Shown here piece by piece: positions 9,288 through 23,544 of a stretch of DNA of 23,544 bases. The notes beneath the pieces were generated by a model that worked only from the letters and a program-made list of their open reading frames with translations, was not told where the DNA came from and searched no databases. Position 1 is the stretch's first letter; each line of letters opens with the position of its first letter. The DNA comes from a virus. The stretch lies in the IMG/VR virus record IMGVR_UViG_3300027770_000261, positions 1-23,544 of that record; one strand, written 5' to 3'. The position numbers and the translations under genes are program-made.

Positions 9288-9965
9288 TTATTTCCAGTTA
9301 TCTTTGACCCATTGTTGATCTGATTCGTGTGGATTAGGTCTTCCGTGAAATACGGATATCTTAGCTTCAGGTGATTGTTCAAATGTCCATTTTGATTTAT
9401 GAAATCTTTTTTGTGTTCTATCTAACCATTTATATGATTGTGTCCACTCATCAGGATAAACTTTTAATATTTTTTCTTTTCTTGTTAAATCACTTATTAC
9501 ATTTTGGTCTCCTTGTACTTTTCTCCATCTTGGTCTATCTTTCATATATGGTTCCCATATTATATTAGATGTTGTTTTATTATTCCATTTCATTACACTA
9601 GAATTAAACCACGTATCTGGTTGACCAAAATCATTAATGATACCAAAGGTATCTTCATCACCCCAATTTACAAAACAATCTATATTTTTCAAAATAACCA
9701 CATCTAAATCTAAATAAAAATTTACTCCTTCAAGGCCAGTGTCAGGATTGAATAGTTGTAGTTTATTCCACCAACCTTCCATATCGTGTCGTGGAAATGA
9801 TTTAAAATGTATTTTGCCATATACTAAATCAAATAAATTGGTATGATCTGTAAAACAATAAAATTGATGTGGTACTGTTAAATGTCTTTGTACCATATTA
9901 TATAAAATTTGTACATATTCTGGTTTATATTTGTCACCATAATATACACAGCAAACGTTAATCAT
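9288..9965 (-). CDS. GT-A-type glycosyltransferase
   Basis: A 225-residue protein. The N-terminus (INVCCVYYGDKYKPEYV) is a typical first strand and loop of a nucleotide-sugar GT-A fold. The metal-binding DxD is DLD at 86-88 in NFYLDLDVVILKNID. A later QGDQNVISD segment (about 152-160) is also common in this group. Likely transfers a sugar from a nucleotide donor; donor and acceptor unknown. It is the last gene of the glycan cassette and overlaps the upstream gene by 8 bases. Confidence 0.75.
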   Translation of the reverse strand: MINVCCVYYGDKYKPEYVQILYNMVQRHLTVPHQFYCFTDHTNLFDLVYGKIHFKSFPRHDMEGWWNKLQLFNPDTGLEGVNFYLDLDVVILKNIDCFVNWGDEDTFGIINDFGQPDTWFNSSVMKWNNKTTSNIIWEPYMKDRPRWRKVQGDQNVISDLTRKEKILKVYPDEWTQSYKWLDRTQKRFHKSKWTFEQSPEAKISVFHGRPNPHESDQQWVKDNWK

Positions 9966-10773
9966 CTCTTTGTGCCTTCAATGTTTTATAAGCCGTACCA
10001 TTGGCCATTTCTTCTATAGTAAATTGATTTTCAGCAACATACTTTAACCAATCTTCCATTGTTTTTCTGCCAGGTTTAAAAGGTTTATCTATAAACTTAA
10101 TACCGTGTGAAGCAATAGGTGCTACAACGTTTGTTTTGCTACAAATAACTGGTACTTTATTCATTACAGCATCTATTGCTGATAAACTCATATTAGTTAC
10201 TAAACAATGACAATCTTTTAATTGATCTTTTATATCTGTATTCCAAAATTCATTTCCTGGCCTTGGTTTATTTCTAACCCTTATTTCTCTATCTGTAAAT
10301 TTTCTTATTTCAGTTGTCACCATATTAATCCAATCGGCCTGTGTAACTCCATTTATATGATATGTAACTGTTTCTGATGATGGTGCTAATAATATATGTT
10401 TACACTCTCCAGTATACCAACCTTTAAATTCTACATCTATGCCTTTTGACCTTAATTCTGCTAGTCTATGTCCTTCTGTTACTTTTCCACCAGTTGTATG
10501 TAATTTTCCTTTTACAATTCTAAAATATGTTTTATCTTTATTGATGATTCTAGGTTCTGGATATCTTACAATCTGTTCTGTTAAATATCCCACATCTACG
10601 TACCACCATTCTTCTCCCTTTTCTATTATCTCTTTTATCTTTGTAGTATTATTACCACCTAATCCCCAAAAGAAATGTACAGGTTTATCTTTTTCAGGCC
10701 AACCTTTTTGTAATGCTGGCCATATTTGGTGGGACAAACATTTTGTCCAATTCATAAAATGAAAAGTGTTCAT
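9958..10773 (-). CDS. putative glycan-biosynthesis protein, paralogue of next upstream gene
   Basis: A 271-residue protein with a GT-B-like outline: an N-terminal Rossmann-like half, then ILLAPSSETVTYH (about 128-140), EIRKFTDREIRVRNKPR (about 156-172) and LVTNMSLSAIDAVMNKVPVI (about 191-210). The last motif is the donor-site pattern of polysaccharide-export and Kdo or glycerol-phosphate-type transferases (Ser/Thr-x-x-Ser-x-x-x-Asp-Ala ... G/K-V-P). The protein encoded at 10770-11594 has the same motifs in the same order, so the two are tandem paralogues. ATGA overlap with it. Enzymatic activity is likely but not proved by any diagnostic residue. Confidence 0.6.
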   Translation of the reverse strand: MNTFHFMNWTKCLSHQIWPALQKGWPEKDKPVHFFWGLGGNNTTKIKEIIEKGEEWWYVDVGYLTEQIVRYPEPRIINKDKTYFRIVKGKLHTTGGKVTEGHRLAELRSKGIDVEFKGWYTGECKHILLAPSSETVTYHINGVTQADWINMVTTEIRKFTDREIRVRNKPRPGNEFWNTDIKDQLKDCHCLVTNMSLSAIDAVMNKVPVICSKTNVVAPIASHGIKFIDKPFKPGRKTMEDWLKYVAENQFTIEEMANGTAYKTLKAQRDD

Positions 10774-11594
10774 TTGTTTTTTAACCTATTCCAAGCAAAA
10801 CCATTTTCTATTTCACTCATTAAATATTGATTTGCTAATAAACTATCTATCCATTCTTCTCTCTTATCACTATATAAAGGTGTTTCTATATAAGATAAAT
10901 CAGTGTAAGATACTGGTACAGCAAAAGACATATTATCACAGAAGGATGGCACACCATTTATGATGGCGTCAACAGCAGCAGTTGATTGTGAAGTTACAAC
11001 AGCCCAAGCACTTTTAAGTTCTTCCATAAAAGGTATTTTACTATCTTTTTTTCTTATTCTTATTTCTCTTTGTGTGTATTGTTTTAATTTATTAATTGTT
11101 TCTTTCTCCCAATTTGTAAAATCATACCATAAATTAACGTGTTCTGATGGTGGCAATACTAAAATGTAATCTCCTTTTTTAGTCCAAGGTTTAATTTGTA
11201 TATATTTTTTAAATTTTATTAATCTTTGTTTATCTATATCATCTAATTTATCTATATAGGTTAACATCATACCATTTTTTGTCAAGCGATATATTCTTTC
11301 ATTAAATATAGAATTTTTACCGTGTTTTTGTTCTTTAAAATAATAAGCGTGGTCAAAATGATAATAAGTATGATTGATTCGTTGGCACTCTTTAATTAAT
11401 TCACCAGTACCTCTTAATATACCAAATACTGCTATAGGGTATTTTGTTAGATTGTTTTTATCAAATGTAGGCCAATTTGTTTGTTCATATTGTTCAACGC
11501 TTTTTAATTTAATGTGCAATATACCATTGGCACTTTTTACAAAAGGCCTTATTACTTGATCTGTAAGTTCTCTTGTTTCAAATCCTTGTATCAC
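10770..11594 (-). CDS. putative glycan-biosynthesis protein, tandem paralogue
   Basis: About 274 residues. Shares with its neighbour the series ILVLPPSEHVN, YTQREIRIRKKDSK, AVVTSQSTAAVDAIINGVPS and a final ENGFAWNRLK-type end. Start: an ATG at 11636 would overlap the glycosyltransferase gene by 46 bases; GTG at 11594-11592 forms a GTGA overlap with that gene's stop, the usual spacing here, and gives a length like its paralogue's (271). Neither has a clear Shine-Dalgarno sequence. Likely transferase of surface-glycan type; substrate unknown. Confidence 0.6.
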   Translation of the reverse strand: MIQGFETRELTDQVIRPFVKSANGILHIKLKSVEQYEQTNWPTFDKNNLTKYPIAVFGILRGTGELIKECQRINHTYYHFDHAYYFKEQKHGKNSIFNERIYRLTKNGMMLTYIDKLDDIDKQRLIKFKKYIQIKPWTKKGDYILVLPPSEHVNLWYDFTNWEKETINKLKQYTQREIRIRKKDSKIPFMEELKSAWAVVTSQSTAAVDAIINGVPSFCDNMSFAVPVSYTDLSYIETPLYSDKREEWIDSLLANQYLMSEIENGFAWNRLKNK

Positions 11595-12265
11595 TTTAAG
11601 TTTACTTCTACTGTTTGATGATATAATTTGAACCAATCAATAGTATAATCATATCCTTTATAATTTTCAAAATAAGGCCCACCCTTTGTGTAGTGAACAC
11701 ATTTTACATTTTCTTTATATTCATATTCACCTACTAACCAATTCCATTCAAGTGGTATTTCTCCTATAAGATGTTCTCCTTCTAACCATTTAAATTGATG
11801 AAGTTCTAAACCACTGGCCTTGTTTACATAATCTGGTGTTAATGTTGTACATTTTTTACAATTCATTAACATAAAACTTGACCAATTCTTTTTAGGATAT
11901 TTTGTTTGTATTTGTCCTAAAAATTTTGTTTCTTCTTTAGGAACATAATCGTGTTTACAAACCTGTACAGCATATTTGTCATCTCTTAATCGCCATAGTT
12001 CTGCTATATCAGTCATCATTAACATATCACAATCCATAAACAAAGCCCAACCTTGATAATTCATCAGGTGTGGTATTATAAATCTACTAAATGAAAATTC
12101 TGTTGATGAAAGATTGTTTCTTTCTCTTACAAAATCATCTTTAATATTTGGTAAATAGATTGGTGTAATTGAAACTGGTTTTGTACTATGTTTCAATATA
12201 CTTTCTGATAACACGTGATATGCTATCTTTTCTTTACTATCATAACCTATAAAAATGTTTATCAT
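11591..12265 (-). CDS. GT-A-type glycosyltransferase (GT8-like)
   Basis: A 224-residue protein. The N-terminus INIFIGYDSKEKIAYHVL is the first strand of GT8-like transferases, and DCD at 78-80 (ALFMDCDMLMM) is the metal-binding DxD. A Trp/Gly-rich segment (LEWNWLVGEY) and a His-Tyr-Thr-Lys-Gly-Gly-Pro-Tyr-Phe segment near the end are typical of the acceptor side and of the metal-binding HxxGxxKPW region, here modified. Its ATG overlaps the cupin gene's stop by four bases. Substrate unknown. Confidence 0.78.
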   Translation of the reverse strand: MINIFIGYDSKEKIAYHVLSESILKHSTKPVSITPIYLPNIKDDFVRERNNLSSTEFSFSRFIIPHLMNYQGWALFMDCDMLMMTDIAELWRLRDDKYAVQVCKHDYVPKEETKFLGQIQTKYPKKNWSSFMLMNCKKCTTLTPDYVNKASGLELHQFKWLEGEHLIGEIPLEWNWLVGEYEYKENVKCVHYTKGGPYFENYKGYDYTIDWFKLYHQTVEVNLK

Positions 12266-12609
12266 ACTTTAGTTCCTATTGTTCTTCTCACTATATCATT
12301 ATGGTTAAATTCAGCCCAATATAATTCAAAGGCAACTCCATTTTCTAGTCCTTCAAATTGATGTATTTTGCTAGGTTTAACTTGTGTAAAATCTCCTGCT
12401 TCTAATATAGTTTCATCTACTAAACCACCTTGATCGTCTTGCCAAACTCTTACTAACATTTTACCTGATTCTACATAAAAACCATTCCATTTAAATTTAT
12501 GTTCGTGTTCGGAACATTTATACCCTGCTTTAAATTCTATTCTATGAAACTCCAAAACACCATTAGCGTGTATTAGTTTTGTATTACCCCATATTTTTCC
12601 AGCTTTCAT
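12262..12609 (-). CDS. cupin-domain protein
   Basis: A 115-residue single-domain cupin. The first metal motif is EHEH (His35, His37) with Glu47, the second has His83 (KPSKIHQFEGL). Size and layout match small sugar-pathway cupins such as mannose-6-phosphate-isomerase-like domains and nucleotide-sugar isomerases. Between glycosyltransferase genes it may isomerise or epimerise a sugar, or sense one. The N-terminal GKIWGNT resembles cupins found in phage sugar clusters. No specific activity can be stated. Confidence 0.78.
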   Translation of the reverse strand: MKAGKIWGNTKLIHANGVLEFHRIEFKAGYKCSEHEHKFKWNGFYVESGKMLVRVWQDDQGGLVDETILEAGDFTQVKPSKIHQFEGLENGVAFELYWAEFNHNDIVRRTIGTKV

Positions 12610-13346
12610 TATTTTCTTCCTTTCGAATTTGGATTAAAATGTTTAGATTCAGCACTAAATCCTTGTAACTTTCTTCTAGGCCCTTTTACGTGATCGTATA
12701 TTTCACCTAGTACCGATCTGGCCTGTACGTGGCCTTTTGCTTCATCACCTATGTTTATATTTTTTGTATTAAAATCTCTTTCAAATCTTATTCTAATTAA
12801 ATCCCATATGTAACTATCGTGGTATTCTTTTTCATTATATATTAAATCTTCATTATACATTTTTTTCATATCCTCAAAATAATTCTTTGTGTCTTTATGT
12901 TTTAAATTCCAAGATAAAAATCCACATTCACTATACATACCACCTCTACCCAAATAAGTCATCATACTATCTTCTTTATATATATGTTCTTTTATGTAGT
13001 CTAATGTAAGTGGATTATGAAATACACTATCAGCATCTACCCATATTAATATGTCATAAGTATTATGATTTATGGCCTGTAGACCAGATTCAATAACACT
13101 ATACACTTTGTAACTAAATCTAACACCATCAACCCAAAAATCTTTAACAGGTCTATTTTTATTTCTTTGTACAAAGTCTTTACTATCTTGTCCTAATTCT
13201 ATTACTTTAAAATCTTTATAGGCTATATTAAATTTCTTTTCTGAATATATGTTTAGATCAAATGGCCAGTTATAAGTTTTTAAAAACCTATGAGCATATT
13301 CATTATATAATTTTTCATTAAAAGATGTTATTACTAATATTTTCAT
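12609..13346 (-). CDS. GT-A-type glycosyltransferase-like protein
   Basis: A 245-residue protein with an initial beta strand MKILVITSFN and a DAD motif (104-106) in ILIWVDADSVF, which is the DxD of GT-A nucleotide-sugar transferases. The later part is rich in Tyr and His (KEYHDSYIWDLIR) and ends in a basic Asn/Lys tail. It overlaps the cupin start by one base and begins one base after the asparagine synthetase stop. Probably transfers a sugar; donor unknown. Confidence 0.65.
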   Translation of the reverse strand: MKILVITSFNEKLYNEYAHRFLKTYNWPFDLNIYSEKKFNIAYKDFKVIELGQDSKDFVQRNKNRPVKDFWVDGVRFSYKVYSVIESGLQAINHNTYDILIWVDADSVFHNPLTLDYIKEHIYKEDSMMTYLGRGGMYSECGFLSWNLKHKDTKNYFEDMKKMYNEDLIYNEKEYHDSYIWDLIRIRFERDFNTKNINIGDEAKGHVQARSVLGEIYDHVKGPRRKLQGFSAESKHFNPNSKGRK

Positions 13347-15170
13347 TTATATACTCATATTAAATAATTTATACCAAGAAGCAAACATAGTCACAATAAA
13401 CAATTCTTTTTGTGATACTAAACCTATTGGCGTTTTGCCTATAAAGGTATCAAAATTTTTATTATTAAAATATCTATTTTCAATATCATCTTTTGTTATT
13501 TCAAATATGTCCATAATTTCTTTACTATTTAGAAGTGATCTAAAATAGTCTTTCATAGATGAATTGTTTTTAGCTGGGTGTGCTTTACTACCTACCATCC
13601 AATCATCTGTTGGCGAACGCCAACCTGATTTTACTTTATTTACAATACTGTCTGGTAATTTATGTTTATAAGCTTTTCTCAATAAATGTTTATTATGTAA
13701 AGAATGATTTACTTTTAAAAATTCATTATTTACTTTTTCTATACCCGGAATACTTCTTATAAAATCTTTAAAAACATTACACATCATAGGAAATCTGGCC
13801 TCCATACTAAATGCCATACCTAATTTATCATTACGTATTAAAAAATCTTCTGATAATACTTGTAAGCATTCTATATACATAAAATCATTTAATGGATCGC
13901 CTGTCAATTTGCCTTTGGGCAACCAAGACATTAGATACTCCCACTGTTCATTTACCGATATATTTAAATCTTTATTGTTTAAACCTTTATGACCTGATCT
14001 TAACATTTCTAATTTCTTTTTAAATGTTCTATCATCTTTTCTCAATATAGGTACTTGATGATGTTTGTATCCGGCCAATAACTCATCTCCTCCATCACCA
14101 CTTAATGTTACAGTCATACCATTATTTGATAATAGTTTATTAGTAGCATAGTATGCTGGAAAGCTTTTACCTTGTCTAGGTTCTTCTAAAGCTAAAACAC
14201 ATTTTTCTAAATTGTCAATCCATTCTTGCTCACCAATTAATACTTCTTTGTGATTTGAATTAAATTGTTCTGATAACATCTTTGCTAAGTTAGCATCTTC
14301 ATTATAATTACTATCTTTATGTGGCTCTACGAATCTTGTAGAAAATGTATTTGGTTTTGTTTTTGATGAATGTATTAATTCATAAAATATAGATGAACTA
14401 TCTAATCCACCACTTAAAAATAAACCTATCTCTCTACGGCCCATAAGAGTCATTTCAACGGCCTTTTTTAGTTTTTCTCTTATTAAATCTGGTATATCTT
14501 TTACGTTACCATCAAAAGGTATTATTCTATCGTTGTTTACATTTGTTGAATGTTTAGTATTTGTAGTAACATCAATTTCTAATATTTCACCAGGCACTAA
14601 TTTATTAATTCCTTCAAACATAGTTAAATAACCAGCAACTAAACCTGAATGATAATAATGTTTAAATCCTTCTTTAGAAACTTTACGTGGAAATCCTAAA
14701 GATAATATACTTTTAATTTCTGATGAAAAAACAAATCTGTTGTTAAAATTACAATAGTAAAAAGGTTTAGCACCGTTACTATCTCTTGCTATAATTAACT
14801 TTTTAGTTTTTTTATTATAACAAGCAAAGGCAAACATACCATCTAGTTTGTGTATAAAACTTTTACCATATTGTTCTATACCAGCCACCAATACTTCTGT
14901 ATCTGTGTTAGTTTTAAATGAATGATTTACCGTTGATTGTAATTCTTTATAGTTATATATTTCTCCATTATAAATTAATACATAATCATTGTGAAACCAA
15001 GGTTGTGAGGAGGCCTTTACTTCATCTACTATTGACAATAGATTATGACCTAATGTAATATGTTCATCATTCCATTGTCCATTACCATCAGGACCCCTAT
15101 GGTGTGCCTGTTTTATCATCTTTGACATAGACTCTTTAGAAGGCCAAAATATACCGTGAATAGCACACAT
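13347..15170 (-). CDS. asnB: asparagine synthetase (glutamine-hydrolysing), AsnB-like
   Basis: A 607-residue protein. An N-terminal class II glutamine amidotransferase domain begins with Cys2, the nucleophile, and has RGPDG (25-29) and NGEIYN (68-73). The C-terminal synthetase domain has the ATP PP-loop SGGLDSS (253-259) and SGDGGDELLAGY (357-368). AsnB makes asparagine from aspartate, glutamine and ATP; close relatives in polysaccharide loci amidate sugar carboxylates (for example uronamide formation). Position in the glycan cassette favours the second role. Gene name follows the family and the true substrate is open. Full length, no damage. Confidence 0.88.
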   Translation of the reverse strand: MCAIHGIFWPSKESMSKMIKQAHHRGPDGNGQWNDEHITLGHNLLSIVDEVKASSQPWFHNDYVLIYNGEIYNYKELQSTVNHSFKTNTDTEVLVAGIEQYGKSFIHKLDGMFAFACYNKKTKKLIIARDSNGAKPFYYCNFNNRFVFSSEIKSILSLGFPRKVSKEGFKHYYHSGLVAGYLTMFEGINKLVPGEILEIDVTTNTKHSTNVNNDRIIPFDGNVKDIPDLIREKLKKAVEMTLMGRREIGLFLSGGLDSSSIFYELIHSSKTKPNTFSTRFVEPHKDSNYNEDANLAKMLSEQFNSNHKEVLIGEQEWIDNLEKCVLALEEPRQGKSFPAYYATNKLLSNNGMTVTLSGDGGDELLAGYKHHQVPILRKDDRTFKKKLEMLRSGHKGLNNKDLNISVNEQWEYLMSWLPKGKLTGDPLNDFMYIECLQVLSEDFLIRNDKLGMAFSMEARFPMMCNVFKDFIRSIPGIEKVNNEFLKVNHSLHNKHLLRKAYKHKLPDSIVNKVKSGWRSPTDDWMVGSKAHPAKNNSSMKDYFRSLLNSKEIMDIFEITKDDIENRYFNNKNFDTFIGKTPIGLVSQKELFIVTMFASWYKLFNMSI

Positions 15171-15171
15171 A

Positions 15172-15828
15172 TTATTCTTTTAGATTACTCCTTAATAGTT
15201 CAACATCTGCTTTAAAATATCTATCACTTTTTTCCCAAGAATGTTTGTCAAACCAAATCCACTGCCTTGATTTTTTACCAGTAGTATCTTCAGCATATTG
15301 AGCTTTAGGATGTTTAAACAATACATCTACAACAATAAATCTTCCTATTTCTTGTCCTAATTTTACTAAGTATGTATCTCCGTATCTGTGTAAAAATTGA
15401 GGAGCATAAAAGAAACCTAAGAGATTAAATACCGTTCTACTCATAGCTGGAAAAGGATGCCTACCTCTTTCATCTTTCACACCCATAAAAAATATATTGT
15501 CTTTATTATATTGTTTAGCGGCCTCTTCCATTTTAATGTCCCAACCTTTAGTAACTATACCAGCATCATCTCCCATTAACATTATTATATCACCTTTGCA
15601 TTTGCCAGCTAATATAGTCCACATATGACCTGTAAATGTAAATATATCAACCATATATTCATTATGTTTTAATTGTTTAAATAAATTTACATAATCATCT
15701 TTAACTGGATCGTCATCTTGTATATAAAACCACAATTCATTTTGATTGATTTGTGTATTACGAAAGTCATTTATCATTCTTCTTACATTTTCTACACGGC
15801 CTCTGGTTGGACAAATTAATGAAATCAT
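15172..15828 (-). CDS. GT2-like glycosyltransferase
   Basis: A 218-residue protein. The start ISLICPTRGRVENVRRMI is the classic first strand of family-2 (GT-A) transferases, and LMGDDAGI (Asp87, Asp88) is the metal/nucleotide motif in place of DxD. FYIQDDD at 34-40 is the usual loop that binds the uracil or other base. The acceptor half has many aromatic residues. ATGA overlap with the epimerase stop. Probably adds a sugar in the same pathway as the epimerase; substrate unknown. Confidence 0.72.
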   Translation of the reverse strand: MISLICPTRGRVENVRRMINDFRNTQINQNELWFYIQDDDPVKDDYVNLFKQLKHNEYMVDIFTFTGHMWTILAGKCKGDIIMLMGDDAGIVTKGWDIKMEEAAKQYNKDNIFFMGVKDERGRHPFPAMSRTVFNLLGFFYAPQFLHRYGDTYLVKLGQEIGRFIVVDVLFKHPKAQYAEDTTGKKSRQWIWFDKHSWEKSDRYFKADVELLRSNLKE

Positions 15829-16868
15829 TTATATCTACCTACTATTTCTTTTATAGTTTCTTTTAGAGTATATTTTATTTCCCAATCAAAATGAGTATAT
15901 AATTTACCTACGTTAGAAATATACCATTGATGATCGCCTATTCTATTCTGTTCTTTTACAGTATAATTCATTTGTACTTTAGTATAATCTTCTATAATTT
16001 TTATTGCCTCTAAGATAGAACAACTGTTGTCTCTTCCACCACCTATATTATATACTTCACCGTTCTTAGGTAGTTCATAGAAATGCCAAAAACAATTTAC
16101 TAAATCATAACTGTGTATATTGTCTCTTACTTGTTTACCTTTGTAACCATATATTGTATATGGTATCTTCTCTATATTTGCTTTAACTAAGTAATTTAAA
16201 AAACCGTGCAATTCGGCACCAGCGTGATTGGGGCCTGTTATACAACCAGCTCTAAAGATACCTGTTTTTAATCCTATGTTTCTACCATACTCTTGTGCTA
16301 ATAAATCACCAGCACATTTAGATACTCCGAATAAACTATGTGTTGAGTTGTCTATAGACATTGTTTCATCTATACCATAATAATATTCGTGTGAAGTATC
16401 TATTTCATATCTTGTTTCTTTTTCTTTTAAAGGCAATCTGTTTGGTGTATCACCATAAACTTTATTTGTAGATACTTGAATAAAGACTGATTGATTAGAA
16501 TATATCTTTGTAAGTTCTAATAAATTTAAAGTACCTACAGCATTGATATTAAAATCTGTATGAGGTTCTTTAATAGCCCAATCGTGTGATGGTTGAGCAG
16601 CGGCGTGAATAATTAAAACTATATCTTTGCCATATTCTTTAAATATTTTTTCTAAACCAGAATATGATCTAATATCTACACTTTTATGTTTGTATCGGTG
16701 TTGAAACTTTAGTAATTCTTTCTTAACGTTTTCTGTACTGGCCTCTTTACCAAAAAAATATTTTCTGCTATCATTATCGATACCAATTACATCTAATCCT
16801 TTATTGATTAAAAACTTAACTGATTCAGAACCAACCAAACCTTGTGAACCTGTAACTAAAGCAATCAT
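15825..16868 (-). CDS. CDP-paratose 2-epimerase-like SDR
   Basis: A 347-residue extended short-chain dehydrogenase/reductase. Rossmann GxxGxxG is at 7-13, the NAD ribose Asp near 31, HAAAQPSHDWA (88-98), STNKVYGDTPNR (133-144), GIDETMSID and FRAGCITGPNHAGAELHGF follow. This motif order is that of CDP-paratose (tyvelose) 2-epimerase and its relatives, which build 3,6-dideoxyhexoses for O-antigen. The usual Tyr of YxxxK is Phe180 (HSLFGVSK, Lys184); I recall this in some relatives, but the catalysis may differ. Makes a nucleotide-sugar that neighbours could transfer. No CDP-sugar dehydratase is in the window, so a substrate must come from the host or elsewhere in the phage. Confidence 0.83.
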   Translation of the reverse strand: MIALVTGSQGLVGSESVKFLINKGLDVIGIDNDSRKYFFGKEASTENVKKELLKFQHRYKHKSVDIRSYSGLEKIFKEYGKDIVLIIHAAAQPSHDWAIKEPHTDFNINAVGTLNLLELTKIYSNQSVFIQVSTNKVYGDTPNRLPLKEKETRYEIDTSHEYYYGIDETMSIDNSTHSLFGVSKCAGDLLAQEYGRNIGLKTGIFRAGCITGPNHAGAELHGFLNYLVKANIEKIPYTIYGYKGKQVRDNIHSYDLVNCFWHFYELPKNGEVYNIGGGRDNSCSILEAIKIIEDYTKVQMNYTVKEQNRIGDHQWYISNVGKLYTHFDWEIKYTLKETIKEIVGRYK

Positions 16869-19075: not shown

Positions 19076-21382
19076 TTATATTTTACAAGACTCACAATCG
19101 TCATCATCAATTGTTGGTGTTGTTTCTGGCACGTTATCTTTAAAACCTACTGGATGTGCCGGTTCATCTTCATCTCTCTTACCATCATATGTATTTTGAT
19201 AATAGGACGTCTTCCAACCATACTTATAGGTGGTCAATAGGTCGTTTATCATTTCTGATAATGGCGTCTGGCCACTATCATAATTTTCTGGATTATAAGA
19301 CCAATTACCACTTATTGCTTGGTCAAAATACTTTTGCATTACTGCTACTACATTTATATATCCTTCATTTGATTTCATATCCCAAAGTAAGGTGTAAAAA
19401 TTCTTCAATTGATTATAATTAGGCACCACTTGTTTTAATGGCCCTTTTTTAGATTTCTTTATAGACAAGTAATCTCTAGGTGGTTCTATACCATTTGTTT
19501 CATTAGATACAACGCTTGAAGATTCTGATGGCATTTGAGCCGAGAGTGTGCTATGTCGGAGGCCGGTCTCAACAATATCCTTCCTCAATTTCTCCCAATT
19601 AAATGATAGTTTTCTGGTAACTATTTCGTCTACCTCTTTTTTATAGGTATCAATTGGTAAGATACCATCAGAATATTTTGTACGATTAAAGTACTCACAC
19701 TTACCTTTTTCTTTTGCTAATTCGTTACTTGCTTTTAAAAGATAGTATTGGAATGCTTCTGTTAATTCATCTACTAATTTCCAAGCTGCCTTCTCGTGGT
19801 ACATTACTTTTTCTCTTGCTAGATAATGTGCTAGACCAATATAACCTATACCTAAACTTCTTCTAGCCTTAGTTGATATTTCTGCTGCTCTAACTGGATA
19901 TTCTTGGTGATCTATAATTTCATCTAACGATCTTACTGATAGATCACACAGTAATTCTAATTCATCTAAATCTTTTAATATACCTAAATTGATCGCCGAT
20001 AATATACATAATGCTATTTCTCCATCACCATCTATATGTTGAATTGGTTTAGTAGGTAATGTAATCTCTTGGCAAAGGTTAGACATAGTAATTGTATCTT
20101 TAAATGATGAGTGTGTATTACAATGATCTATATTCATAATATAGATACGGCCTGTTTCGGCTCTTTCTTTTAAAACACTTTGTATTAATTCTTGTGCTGA
20201 TATTTTTTTCTTTTTAATAGATGTTTTTTTTTCATATTCTTCATATAATTTATCAAATTTGGGAGTACCCCAAGCTTCATATAAATCTGGTACTTCGTGT
20301 GGTGAGAATAAAGTTATTTGTTCATCATTAATAAATCTTTGATAAAATAATTTAGATAGTTGTATTGAGTAATCTAATTTTCTTACTCTATTATCTTCTG
20401 AACCTTTATTGTTTTTTAAAACTAATATATCAGATATTTCTTGGTGCCAAATAGGAAAGTGAACTGTTGCACTACCACCTCTTACACCATTTTGTGTACA
20501 ACATTTAACTGTTGCCTCAAACTTTTTAAGAAATGGAATAACACCAGTATGTTGAACTTCTCCACCTCGTATACGTGAATTGATTCCTCTTATACGACCA
20601 GCGTTAATACCGATGCCGGCACGTTGTGATATATAACGGCCAATAGCCATATCACCACTAAAAATACTAGGAAGAGTATCATCAATATCAACGAGAACAC
20701 AACTAGCATACTGCTTAACAGGAGTCCTAACGCCAGCCATAACAGGAGTTGGAATATTAATTTTAAACCTCGAAATAGCATCATAATACTTTTTAACATA
20801 AGTCATCCTTTTTTCTTTTGAGTATTTTGCAAATATCGTTGCTGATATAAGCATATACATAAACTGAGGTGTTTCATAAATTTCACCTGAACTTCTATCT
20901 TGTACTAGGTATTTGTCTATCACTTGTCTTAACCCAGCATATGTAAAATTGTAATCTCTTGTGTGGTCTATCCACATATTCATACGATCAAATTCTGACT
21001 TGTCGTATAATTTTAAAATTTCTGGATCGTAAACTTTTTTATCTACACATTTTTTTGTGTGATCGTATAAGTGTGGATGGTCCCAAAGTTTTCTAAAAAT
21101 ACTTTTTCTTAAACTGAATAATAATAATCTAGCAGCAACGTATTGATAATTAGGTGTTTCTAATGAAATTAAATCTGAAGCCGACTTAATAAGAATTTGT
21201 TGTATTTGATCTGTAGATATACCATCAAAAAATTGTAAACCACTTTTCATTTCAACTTGTGATGCTGACACACCTGATATATCTTCACAAGCAAACTCCA
21301 CCATCTGGTGTATCTTTTCAATATTAAGAGGTTCTTTTTCTCTGGAATTTCTTTTCTGAACTAATATTTTTTCAGTTGTCAT
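19076..21382 (-). CDS. nrdA: ribonucleoside-diphosphate reductase alpha subunit, class Ia
   Basis: A 768-residue R1 protein. N-terminal ATP cone (residues about 4-95, allosteric activity site), then the ten-stranded barrel: Cys228 and Cys459 (redox pair), Cys437 in SNLCQEI (thiyl radical) with Asn435 and Glu439, Tyr727-Tyr728 (radical transfer from NrdB) and a C-terminal CESC (763, 766) that reduces the active site. In E. coli the last pair is CxxxxC, here CxxC. Glutaredoxin at 4718-5002 is the probable reductant. ATGA overlap with the primase gene. Complete, no intein or frameshift seen. Confidence 0.97.
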   Translation of the reverse strand: MTTEKILVQKRNSREKEPLNIEKIHQMVEFACEDISGVSASQVEMKSGLQFFDGISTDQIQQILIKSASDLISLETPNYQYVAARLLLFSLRKSIFRKLWDHPHLYDHTKKCVDKKVYDPEILKLYDKSEFDRMNMWIDHTRDYNFTYAGLRQVIDKYLVQDRSSGEIYETPQFMYMLISATIFAKYSKEKRMTYVKKYYDAISRFKINIPTPVMAGVRTPVKQYASCVLVDIDDTLPSIFSGDMAIGRYISQRAGIGINAGRIRGINSRIRGGEVQHTGVIPFLKKFEATVKCCTQNGVRGGSATVHFPIWHQEISDILVLKNNKGSEDNRVRKLDYSIQLSKLFYQRFINDEQITLFSPHEVPDLYEAWGTPKFDKLYEEYEKKTSIKKKKISAQELIQSVLKERAETGRIYIMNIDHCNTHSSFKDTITMSNLCQEITLPTKPIQHIDGDGEIALCILSAINLGILKDLDELELLCDLSVRSLDEIIDHQEYPVRAAEISTKARRSLGIGYIGLAHYLAREKVMYHEKAAWKLVDELTEAFQYYLLKASNELAKEKGKCEYFNRTKYSDGILPIDTYKKEVDEIVTRKLSFNWEKLRKDIVETGLRHSTLSAQMPSESSSVVSNETNGIEPPRDYLSIKKSKKGPLKQVVPNYNQLKNFYTLLWDMKSNEGYINVVAVMQKYFDQAISGNWSYNPENYDSGQTPLSEMINDLLTTYKYGWKTSYYQNTYDGKRDEDEPAHPVGFKDNVPETTPTIDDDDCESCKI

Positions 21383-22383
21383 ATATTACATTTCTTCCAA
21401 GTGTTTAATCGAGTTAATGCTGATAACTTATTGTATGTGTTATTACTTATAATACTTTTAACCTCTGGAATTAATTTACCTGAAGTAATTAAATCGTTTA
21501 TATCTTTTGATTGTATAGATTCTGGCCATATAAAAACATTATAATTATTATCAATTATTTTATACATACGTTTTACAATCTCTTTATTTCTAGGTTCATT
21601 ATCAAAAATATAAGTTACATTATCAGGATTTGTTTTTAAAGTTAAATCAGCACCTGCTGCCGCTAAACAATTATCTATAAACAAACTATCAATTGGGCCT
21701 TCTGTTATGTATATATGCTTTTGAAAATTAACTCTTTCTAAACCATATACCTTTTGTTTAGTTTCGTCAAGCTTAATTGTTAAATATTTTGGTTGTTCAT
21801 TACCAAATGCTCTACCTTGAAATGTAAATAAATTACCTGTTGTATCATAGAAAGGTATTATTAATCTTGGATGTTCACCTTTAAAATTATTAAATGTATT
21901 TGGTTTAATTTTATTAACCAAAGACATAAATTGATCTGTATAATAAAGTATATCAAAAAACTTATCTGGTATTTTTCTTTTGATAATATACTTCTTAGCA
22001 GGATGTTTATCTGGCAATTCTGATATAGTAGGTAATTCTTCTATAACACTAACTTCTTTAAACACTGGTGGTTTAAAATCAAATTTTGGTTCTGGTGTTG
22101 CTGGTGCTGATCCTTTATATCTCTCTAATATAAATTCACTATATAGTTTAGGGTCTATAAACTTAATAAAGTTGGCCAGATTTTGACCCATACCACAATT
22201 ATGGCATTTAAAGAACATATCGTTCTTAACTCTATAAAGATAGGCTCTTGCTTTTGTTTTATTCTTCTGTGAATCACCACAATGAGGACATCTAAAATTA
22301 AATAAGTGGTCGTTTTTTCTTTTGAACTTACTCAACCTAGACGATAATAAATTAATAAATTTTAAATCAATATAAGATGACAT
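21379..22383 (-). CDS. 61: DNA primase, T4 gp61-like
   Basis: A 334-residue primase (T4 gp61 has 342). The N-terminal zinc ribbon has CPHC (32-35) and CHNC (60-63), the TOPRIM domain has Glu228 (TEGPIDSLF) and Asp261-Asn-Glu263 in YIFDNEP. It makes short RNA primers for lagging-strand synthesis, working with the phage helicase (gp41, not in the window). No Shine-Dalgarno sequence; the ATG is only about 5 bases from the predicted start of a strong promoter, so translation may be leaderless from that promoter. Overlaps nrdA by four bases. Confidence 0.94.
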   Translation of the reverse strand: MSSYIDLKFINLLSSRLSKFKRKNDHLFNFRCPHCGDSQKNKTKARAYLYRVKNDMFFKCHNCGMGQNLANFIKFIDPKLYSEFILERYKGSAPATPEPKFDFKPPVFKEVSVIEELPTISELPDKHPAKKYIIKRKIPDKFFDILYYTDQFMSLVNKIKPNTFNNFKGEHPRLIIPFYDTTGNLFTFQGRAFGNEQPKYLTIKLDETKQKVYGLERVNFQKHIYITEGPIDSLFIDNCLAAAGADLTLKTNPDNVTYIFDNEPRNKEIVKRMYKIIDNNYNVFIWPESIQSKDINDLITSGKLIPEVKSIISNNTYNKLSALTRLNTWKKCNI

Positions 22384-22424: not shown

Positions 22425-22850
22425 CTAATTAAATAGGCTTAATAGTTTATTGAAGTCTTTTGTTATTAGAAATACTATTACAATGGCAGCACCTAATAAT
22501 ATCCATCTGGCCTTTTCAAGCATACTAACTCTACTGCCTATATCATTTCGTAATGCTTTGATTTCTATGAGTAAACGTCTTTCAACTTGACTAATTTCTC
22601 TTTGTAATTCTCTATAGACACTGTCGATTTCTTCAGCTCTATCTTTTATCTTTTCAAATATAATTTCGTCTGTTTTTTCTTGTCTTTCAATTTTTTCTTC
22701 GTGTACGGCCAACATAGACTTAATACAAGATGACACGTCAGCAAGTTTCTCAATAGCCATATCTAAACGGTTATTGATGCTGCTAACGTTTTCAAGGTCT
22801 TTTTTAATACCTTCTAACTCTACTCTTATATCTAAGTTGTCGTTGTCCAT
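22425..22850 (-). CDS. coiled-coil protein with C-terminal membrane anchor
   Basis: A 141-residue protein. Residues 1-112 are a long charged coiled coil (for example NNRLDMAIEKLADV, EEKIERQEKTDEIIFEKI, LQREISQVERRLLIEIKALR), and residues about 115-131 (WILLGAAIVIVFLI) form one membrane span. The topology is N-in, anchored by its tail. Such proteins are seen in marine T4-like phages without a function assigned; candidates are lysis control or membrane attachment of replication. Only a weak purine-rich stretch precedes the ATG. Confidence 0.68.
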   Translation of the reverse strand: MDNDNLDIRVELEGIKKDLENVSSINNRLDMAIEKLADVSSCIKSMLAVHEEKIERQEKTDEIIFEKIKDRAEEIDSVYRELQREISQVERRLLIEIKALRNDIGSRVSMLEKARWILLGAAIVIVFLITKDFNKLLSLFN

Positions 22851-22898: not shown

Positions 22899-23045
22899 TT
22901 ACTTTGGTACGCTAGGCGTAGTTATGTATTTTTTGCTGTTACTTATATTTATGTTAATTAGCTCGTCTATATGTGCCCATTGGGCGCCTATCAAAATACT
23001 CAAAATAAAAAATATAACGGTTATTATTTTGTAAACTTTTGGCAT
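22899..23045 (-). CDS. 48-residue single-span membrane protein
   Basis: Short ORF with a hydrophobic segment at about 5-22 followed by a polar Asn/Ser/Lys tail. The nearest strong Shine-Dalgarno sequence (AAAGGAG) is about 20 bases upstream of this ATG and 12 bases upstream of another ATG at 23054, which opens a 34-residue, less protein-like frame. I prefer the membrane ORF on composition, but the ribosome site makes the start unclear. Function unknown. Confidence 0.45.
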   Translation of the reverse strand: MPKVYKIITVIFFILSILIGAQWAHIDELININISNSKKYITTPSVPK

Positions 23046-23171: not shown

Positions 23172-23384
23172 CTACGCTACTTTAGTAAATAGTTGTTGAT
23201 TGTGCATAAGTCGTAGTCTTTCCATTTTCCATAGTTTGGTTAATGTTCGTCTTTTTCTTCTCTCTTTTTGTTTTCTTATCTGTATCCAGTTTAAATTTAA
23301 TAAGTATAATTTAAGTTTCTTTTCATTTCTAATTTGTCTTTTTGCTATCTTTCGTAACTTTCTTACTTGTAGTAGGGTTAACAT
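23172..23384 (-). CDS. very basic 70-residue protein overlapping the cyclase gene
   Basis: A 70-residue protein with about a third Lys/Arg and no acidic patch; helical with leucines. The ATG at 23384 has an excellent ribosome site (AAAGGA, 5 bases before), and the first 56 bases lie inside the 3' end of the cyclase gene in another frame. Basic composition suggests nucleic-acid or membrane binding. The Shine-Dalgarno site favours a real gene; the AT-rich composition can generate Lys-rich frames by chance, so some doubt remains. Confidence 0.55.
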   Translation of the reverse strand: MLTLLQVRKLRKIAKRQIRNEKKLKLYLLNLNWIQIRKQKERRKRRTLTKLWKMERLRLMHNQQLFTKVA

Positions 23385-23544
23385 TGTTATCCTTTACTGT
23401 GTAGATTGATACCATATTTGATTTGCCTTTTACTTGTACATCATCTAATTTAGAAAAGTTGAATTGATTTGAAATGTCTTTATAAGTATCTTCGCCAACT
23501 ACTAATGTAGCATCATAGTTTTTACTCACGCCTTCTAATCTACT
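23329..23544 (-). CDS. class III nucleotide cyclase, C-terminal part, cut by window edge
   Basis: The frame is open to the right edge, so only the last 71 residues are visible; the GTG at 23529 is an internal Val codon, not a start. The visible residues begin SRLEGVSKNYDATLVVGEDTY, then FNFSKLDDVQVKGKSNMVSIYTV. This is the end of the catalytic domain of class III adenylyl/guanylyl cyclases: the Arg in (N-x-x-x)-R-L, the I-x-V-x-E-x-x-Y strand and the V-K-G-K-x-x-x-V-x-x-Y/V end. A polar Ser/Lys/Thr tail follows. It would make cAMP or cGMP, but the specificity residues lie upstream of the window. Confidence 0.8.
   Translation of the reverse strand, partial: SRLEGVSKNYDATLVVGEDTYKDISNQFNFSKLDDVQVKGKSNMVSIYTVKDNNVNPTTSKKVTKDSKKTN

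Follow-up and report, generated by a model that had tools for sequence, protein, structure and literature searches.

A CHASE2-linked class III cyclase at the edge of a marine phage contig is a candidate readout of an exchangeable surface-export module

The window analysed here is a virus record of 23,544 bases that probably derives from a pelagimyophage-type relative of T4 from the sea, and the contig stops within the catalytic domain of a nucleotide cyclase. The minus-strand frame at its right edge (23329–23544) is open at the 5' side and comprises the C-terminal 71 codons and the stop of the cyclase gene; the frame reads SRLEGVSKNYDATLVVGEDTYKDI...VKGKSNMVSIYTV..., or more fully SRLEGVSKNYDATLVVGEDTYKDISNQFNFSKLDDVQVKGKSNMVSIYTV followed by a short tail. 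Since the record ends at 23,544, the 5' portion of the gene is unreadable from it. A Pfam search with the 71 residues alone returned no matches, the fragment being too short, and domains were therefore called on full-length relatives, which carry CHASE2 and Guanylate_cyc domains. The sole match of the fragment itself is PHROG 35576 (E 2.8e-4). Relatives of the fragment are encoded by 65 viral contigs, so that the edge cyclase is not a chance reading frame, and the best of these relatives, L001 and L002, show no difference from the window across all 71 amino acids and 213 nucleotides. Among the catalytic residues, only the Arg of the NLASRLEG motif and the Lys of VKGK fall inside the window. 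The first-pass annotation had read the fragment as the C-terminus of a class III cyclase, catalytic Arg included, encoded by a phage-type genome; the comparison with relatives bears this identification out.

In the full-length relatives, of approximately 540–690 amino acids, the class III cyclase domain (PF00211) is preceded by CHASE2 (PF05226), so the N-terminal CHASE2 sensor that had been guessed from the fragment is indeed present in them. In six full-length relatives, Guanylate_cyc scores 68–91 bits against a curated cut-off of 21.9 (E 1e-18 to 8e-26), and CHASE2 is above its curated cut-off in all six (E 3e-25 to 4e-41). The metal-binding Asp pair is found in 62 of the 62 aligned relatives that cover the region, as are the adenine-recognition Lys (62/62) and Asp (62/62); the catalytic Arg is present in 63/63 sequences, the window included, and the phosphate Lys in every aligned sequence covering the site (62–63). 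The transition-state Asn is conserved in 61/62, the lone exception being phage Melnitz, which has Ser instead. The Melnitz cyclase (L066) carries several further changes, and its activity appears less certain than that of the pelagiphage enzymes. In the catalytic part, dN/dS ranges from 0.014 to 0.17 (12 pairs), indicating strong purifying selection. Given the complete catalytic residues and this selection, members of the family are most likely active adenylate cyclases, and the degenerate, inactive remnant that the first-pass annotation had allowed for is ruled out in the relatives; the substrate-specifying residues point to cAMP as the probable product. An AlphaFold model of L004 (pLDDT 76, pTM 0.58) places N-terminal helices, a mixed alpha/beta sensor, three long helices (310–331, 334–359 and 366–398) and the cyclase domain in this order, and the best PDB matches to its catalytic part include Pseudomonas aeruginosa CyaB, Cya2 and Spirulina CyaC, at an rmsd of approximately 2–2.5 Å. 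CHASE2 would face the periplasm and the cyclase the cytoplasm.

The 3' end of the cyclase gene is overlapped in another frame by a minus-strand ORF (23172–23384) for a basic protein of 70 amino acids, which is kept in L001–L005 and matches no Pfam family above the cut-off; ORFs of 66–67 amino acids in L009–L016 are possibly related to it. Immediately downstream of the cyclase, most relatives encode a coiled-coil protein of the DUF7201 family that has a hydrophobic segment at its C-terminus (22425–22850 in the window, minus strand; PF23831, E 1.9e-19, and synteny). It is usually followed by the primase, nrdA and nrdB, and the same four genes are found in the window. The primase (21379–22383, minus strand; named from sequence and neighbourhood) is syntenic in more than 50 loci and forms part of the invariant phage backbone that follows the module, to which the large subunit of ribonucleotide reductase, NrdA (19076–21382, minus strand; synteny, named from sequence), also belongs. 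Farther away, at 9288–16868, lies a block of genes for glycosyltransferase-like, asparagine-synthase-like and NAD-dependent epimerase-like proteins (names from sequence), which probably corresponds to the hypervariable island known from pelagimyophages.

On the other side of the cyclase, the relatives whose sequence extends upstream, L004 among them, encode CsgF, CsgG, a curlin-repeat-like protein and a FecR-domain protein, and the cyclase is usually the last gene of this curli module. In L009 and L054 it is located on the opposite side of csgF and is inverted, yet still lies within the module. The long FecR-like protein matches Pfam FecR weakly (E 0.03, below the cut-off). As the contig stops inside the cyclase gene, the window's own membership in a curli module would follow from its relatives; L004 is 98.3% identical to the window across 6.4 kb. 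Four loci from MAGs binned as Flavobacteriaceae, Saprospirales or Pelagibacter (L067, L070, L073 and L074) also carry a phage-type curli module. They were considered as bacterial host homologues and dropped, because of the module type and because L073 also encodes a terminase, a portal and a major head protein; misbinning of phage contigs is the probable explanation.

The presence of a cyclase in the curli (type VIII secretion) module is already known. Annotated cyclases adjoin the curli genes of Pelagibacter phage HTVC008M and Methylophilales phage Melnitz, whose modules have the same genes in the same order as the relatives described here, and in the pelagiphage module Wittmers et al. 2022 (PMC9599517) described an adenylate cyclase together with FecR and a histidine kinase; Zaragoza-Solas et al. 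2020 (PMC7029224) and Buchholz et al. 2022 (PMC9004378) discuss the curli genes but not the cyclase. The cyclase of L004 is 53% identical to that of HTVC008M and 49% to that of Melnitz. The view of the first-pass annotation that such cyclases are unusual in phages thus holds in general but not for the pelagiphage lineage, where they are common, annotated and published. The two genes of ~90–98 amino acids just upstream of csgF (L073:6384–6952 and L005:675–1209), where the published module places a histidine kinase, contain no histidine-kinase domain recognized by Pfam, so the published kinase annotation may merit a re-check. Their products resemble small membrane or coiled-coil proteins, and L005:675–953 corresponds to phrog_18771. 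The available part of Wittmers et al. contains no mention of CHASE2, of sensor types, of co-variation with FecR and curli genes, of junction swaps or of a type I alternative. In the literature as a whole, access to which was limited, no report was found of CHASE2 sensor co-variation, junction swaps, the type I/FecR-adhesin alternative or a contig with both modules.

Site-by-site comparison of the window with L001 and L004 revealed a mosaic. To the right of 23,036, all 32 of the two-way informative sites agree with L001, which has a type 2 sensor, whereas from 23,021 leftward 115 of the 118 informative sites agree with L004, of the type 3 sensor lineage (both counted by hand). With its two sides matching different relatives, the window is likely a recombinant, or an assembly chimera, joined within 23021–23036; the edge sequence favours, with some uncertainty, a type 2 sensor for the window itself. 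Contig ends of the relatives fall within 3 kb upstream of the cyclase in 46 of 63 contigs versus 5 of 63 downstream, the contigs being not fully independent, and such clustering is expected if co-occurring strains differ there.

The relatives possess three classes of CHASE2, the distribution of which suggests repeated replacement of the sensor. In three pairs of loci (L003/L004, L011/L012 and L043/L045), the sensors are only 25–36% identical while the cyclase domains are 90–98% identical, and the jump in identity coincides with the beginning of the cyclase domain (QIKKQFEHYL) in protein and DNA alike. A single origin of the type 2 and type 3 sensors is rejected by the DNA tree of the cyclase domain (p-AU 2e-7). 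Pairwise identity of CHASE2 tracks that of csgF, csgG, curlin and FecR (Spearman 0.66–0.77 across 12–16 loci), whereas identity of the catalytic domain shows no such relation (-0.11 to -0.35 over the same genes, 12–16 loci). Furthermore, the sensor type agrees with the FecR type in all 22 loci that have a typed FecR, and the association persists in the 17 loci left after dereplication (Fisher p 4e-4). Since CHASE2 co-varies with FecR and the curli genes and the catalytic domain does not, the sensor half of this single gene belongs evolutionarily to the export module and the enzyme half does not. The sensor thus appears to be exchanged together with the genes for fibre or adhesin export, leaving the enzyme half nearly unchanged.

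The same cyclase is also found beside an exporter of a different kind. In the marine MAG record L069 and in at least 32 viral contigs, type I secretion genes (an OEP outer-membrane protein, the ABC membrane part and HlyD) replace the curli genes next to the CHASE2-cyclase, and in those contigs whose sequence reaches far enough a giant FecR-containing protein is encoded upstream of it. The type I set with the giant protein is located in L088–L167 and at L069:2231–9508; in L134 the giant protein has 1696 amino acids and, by eye, combines a FecR-like N-terminus with an extended coiled coil and cadherin-like repeats. The exchange of sensors extends across the two module types: L157, with curli-type neighbours, and L089, with type I secretion, have cyclase domains that are 96% identical and sensors that are 28% identical. 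In L090 the two modules adjoin one another, and each includes a separate cyclase with a full set of catalytic residues. Searches of the type I contigs of 103–148 kb for the T4 hallmarks gp23, terminase N domain and gp19 found none, the gp19 search having lacked a working control.

On balance, we consider it probable that the protein is a receptor adenylate cyclase that reads out the phage surface-export module, with FecR–CHASE2 sensing the state of export and the cyclase making cAMP. The phage would export a curli fibre or adhesin through its own module; the FecR-domain protein and CHASE2 would most likely form a matched periplasmic pair, in line with gene adjacency and co-variation in the relatives, and may contact each other; this pair would sense the state of the exported fibre or adhesin and gate the cyclase, which would turn the signal into cAMP. 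Bacterial systems offer partial precedents. In the BiofilmReg system, FecR and a CHASE2 histidine kinase are encoded in one biofilm operon (PMC5192318), which resembles the phage arrangement in having a periplasmic FecR-domain protein encoded beside a CHASE2 receptor and a link to biofilm or export, but differs in that the output is a histidine kinase rather than a cyclase. Sinorhizobium meliloti CyaD1 likewise couples a CHASE2 sensor to a class III cyclase and becomes constitutive upon removal of CHASE2; it is, however, a chromosomal bacterial regulator that acts through Clr, and the available part of the source describes no curli module (PMC5498481). In rhizobial or roseobacter plasmids, FecR is encoded beside a relative of the CHASE2-cyclase in three of three regions, two of which also include an exporter and a cNMP-binding protein, whereas no cNMP-binding domain was found in the complete Melnitz genome or in the other phage records searched, so that a cAMP output would need a host receptor. 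A broader reading, which we hold only tentatively, is that exchangeable trans-envelope cassettes exist, in which each exporter, be it the curli type VIII system or the type I system with its secreted FecR-adhesin, moves together with a FecR–CHASE2 sensor of its own and is fitted to a conserved adenylate cyclase, the infected cell reporting export by means of cAMP.

It is rather unlikely that the cyclase is instead a metabolic gene of which only the output matters, with cAMP switching on host or phage genes, curli included, and CHASE2 sensing a general envelope or nutrient cue. Such a role was proposed by Wittmers et al. by reference to the control of enterobacterial curli through CsgD, although that study reports no CsgD (PMC9599517), and it agrees with the independence of the catalytic domain from the curli genes. 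It leaves unexplained both the invariable match of CHASE2 and FecR types and the pair of cyclases on the contig with two export modules, and the phage records searched hold no receptor for the nucleotide. The related suggestion of the first-pass annotation that the enzyme redirects host metabolism is compatible with the data but does not account for the sensor or for its linkage to FecR and curli.

The sensor swaps could also be read with little weight given to cyclase activity, the conserved catalytic domain serving mainly as a homology anchor for the exchange of surface modules. DNA similarity in the swapped pairs that begins at the cyclase domain, contig ends that cluster just upstream and the mosaic of the window at 23,021–23,036 are all in line with this proposal, which is nonetheless improbable, since the domain is under strong purifying selection and its catalytic residues are complete, which an anchor would not require. 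Assembly chimeras of co-occurring strains as the source of both the ~23.03 kb junction and the mosaic sensor pattern are a decidedly improbable account: assembly of short metagenomic reads can fuse strains where their sequences are conserved, but the sensor types recur across independent samples with matching FecR types, the swaps inside curli phages are three and separate, and two of the swapped pairs are alignable for approximately 6 kb downstream of the junction. For the window taken singly, a chimera is a more serious possibility. The idea of the first-pass annotation that the protein is a decoy or competitor against a cyclic-nucleotide defence such as Pycsar, which uses cCMP/cUMP, draws on the general fact of a phage gene in cyclic-nucleotide metabolism and is highly improbable in view of the adenylate-type substrate residues (62/62), the membrane receptor architecture and the embedding in an export module, and no Pycsar-type cyclic-nucleotide effector was recognised among the neighbours of the cyclase in the relatives.

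Sibling capture, a pinholin and an uptake pore have been proposed as roles of the pelagiphage curli genes. If FecR, CHASE2 and the cyclase constitute a dedicated readout of export, the role of these genes becomes testable. The readout of export favoured here suggests that an envelope-to-cell second-messenger signal operates during infection by phages of some very abundant ocean bacteria, and that one enzyme may accept, interchangeably, surface modules built on two unrelated kinds of secretion system.
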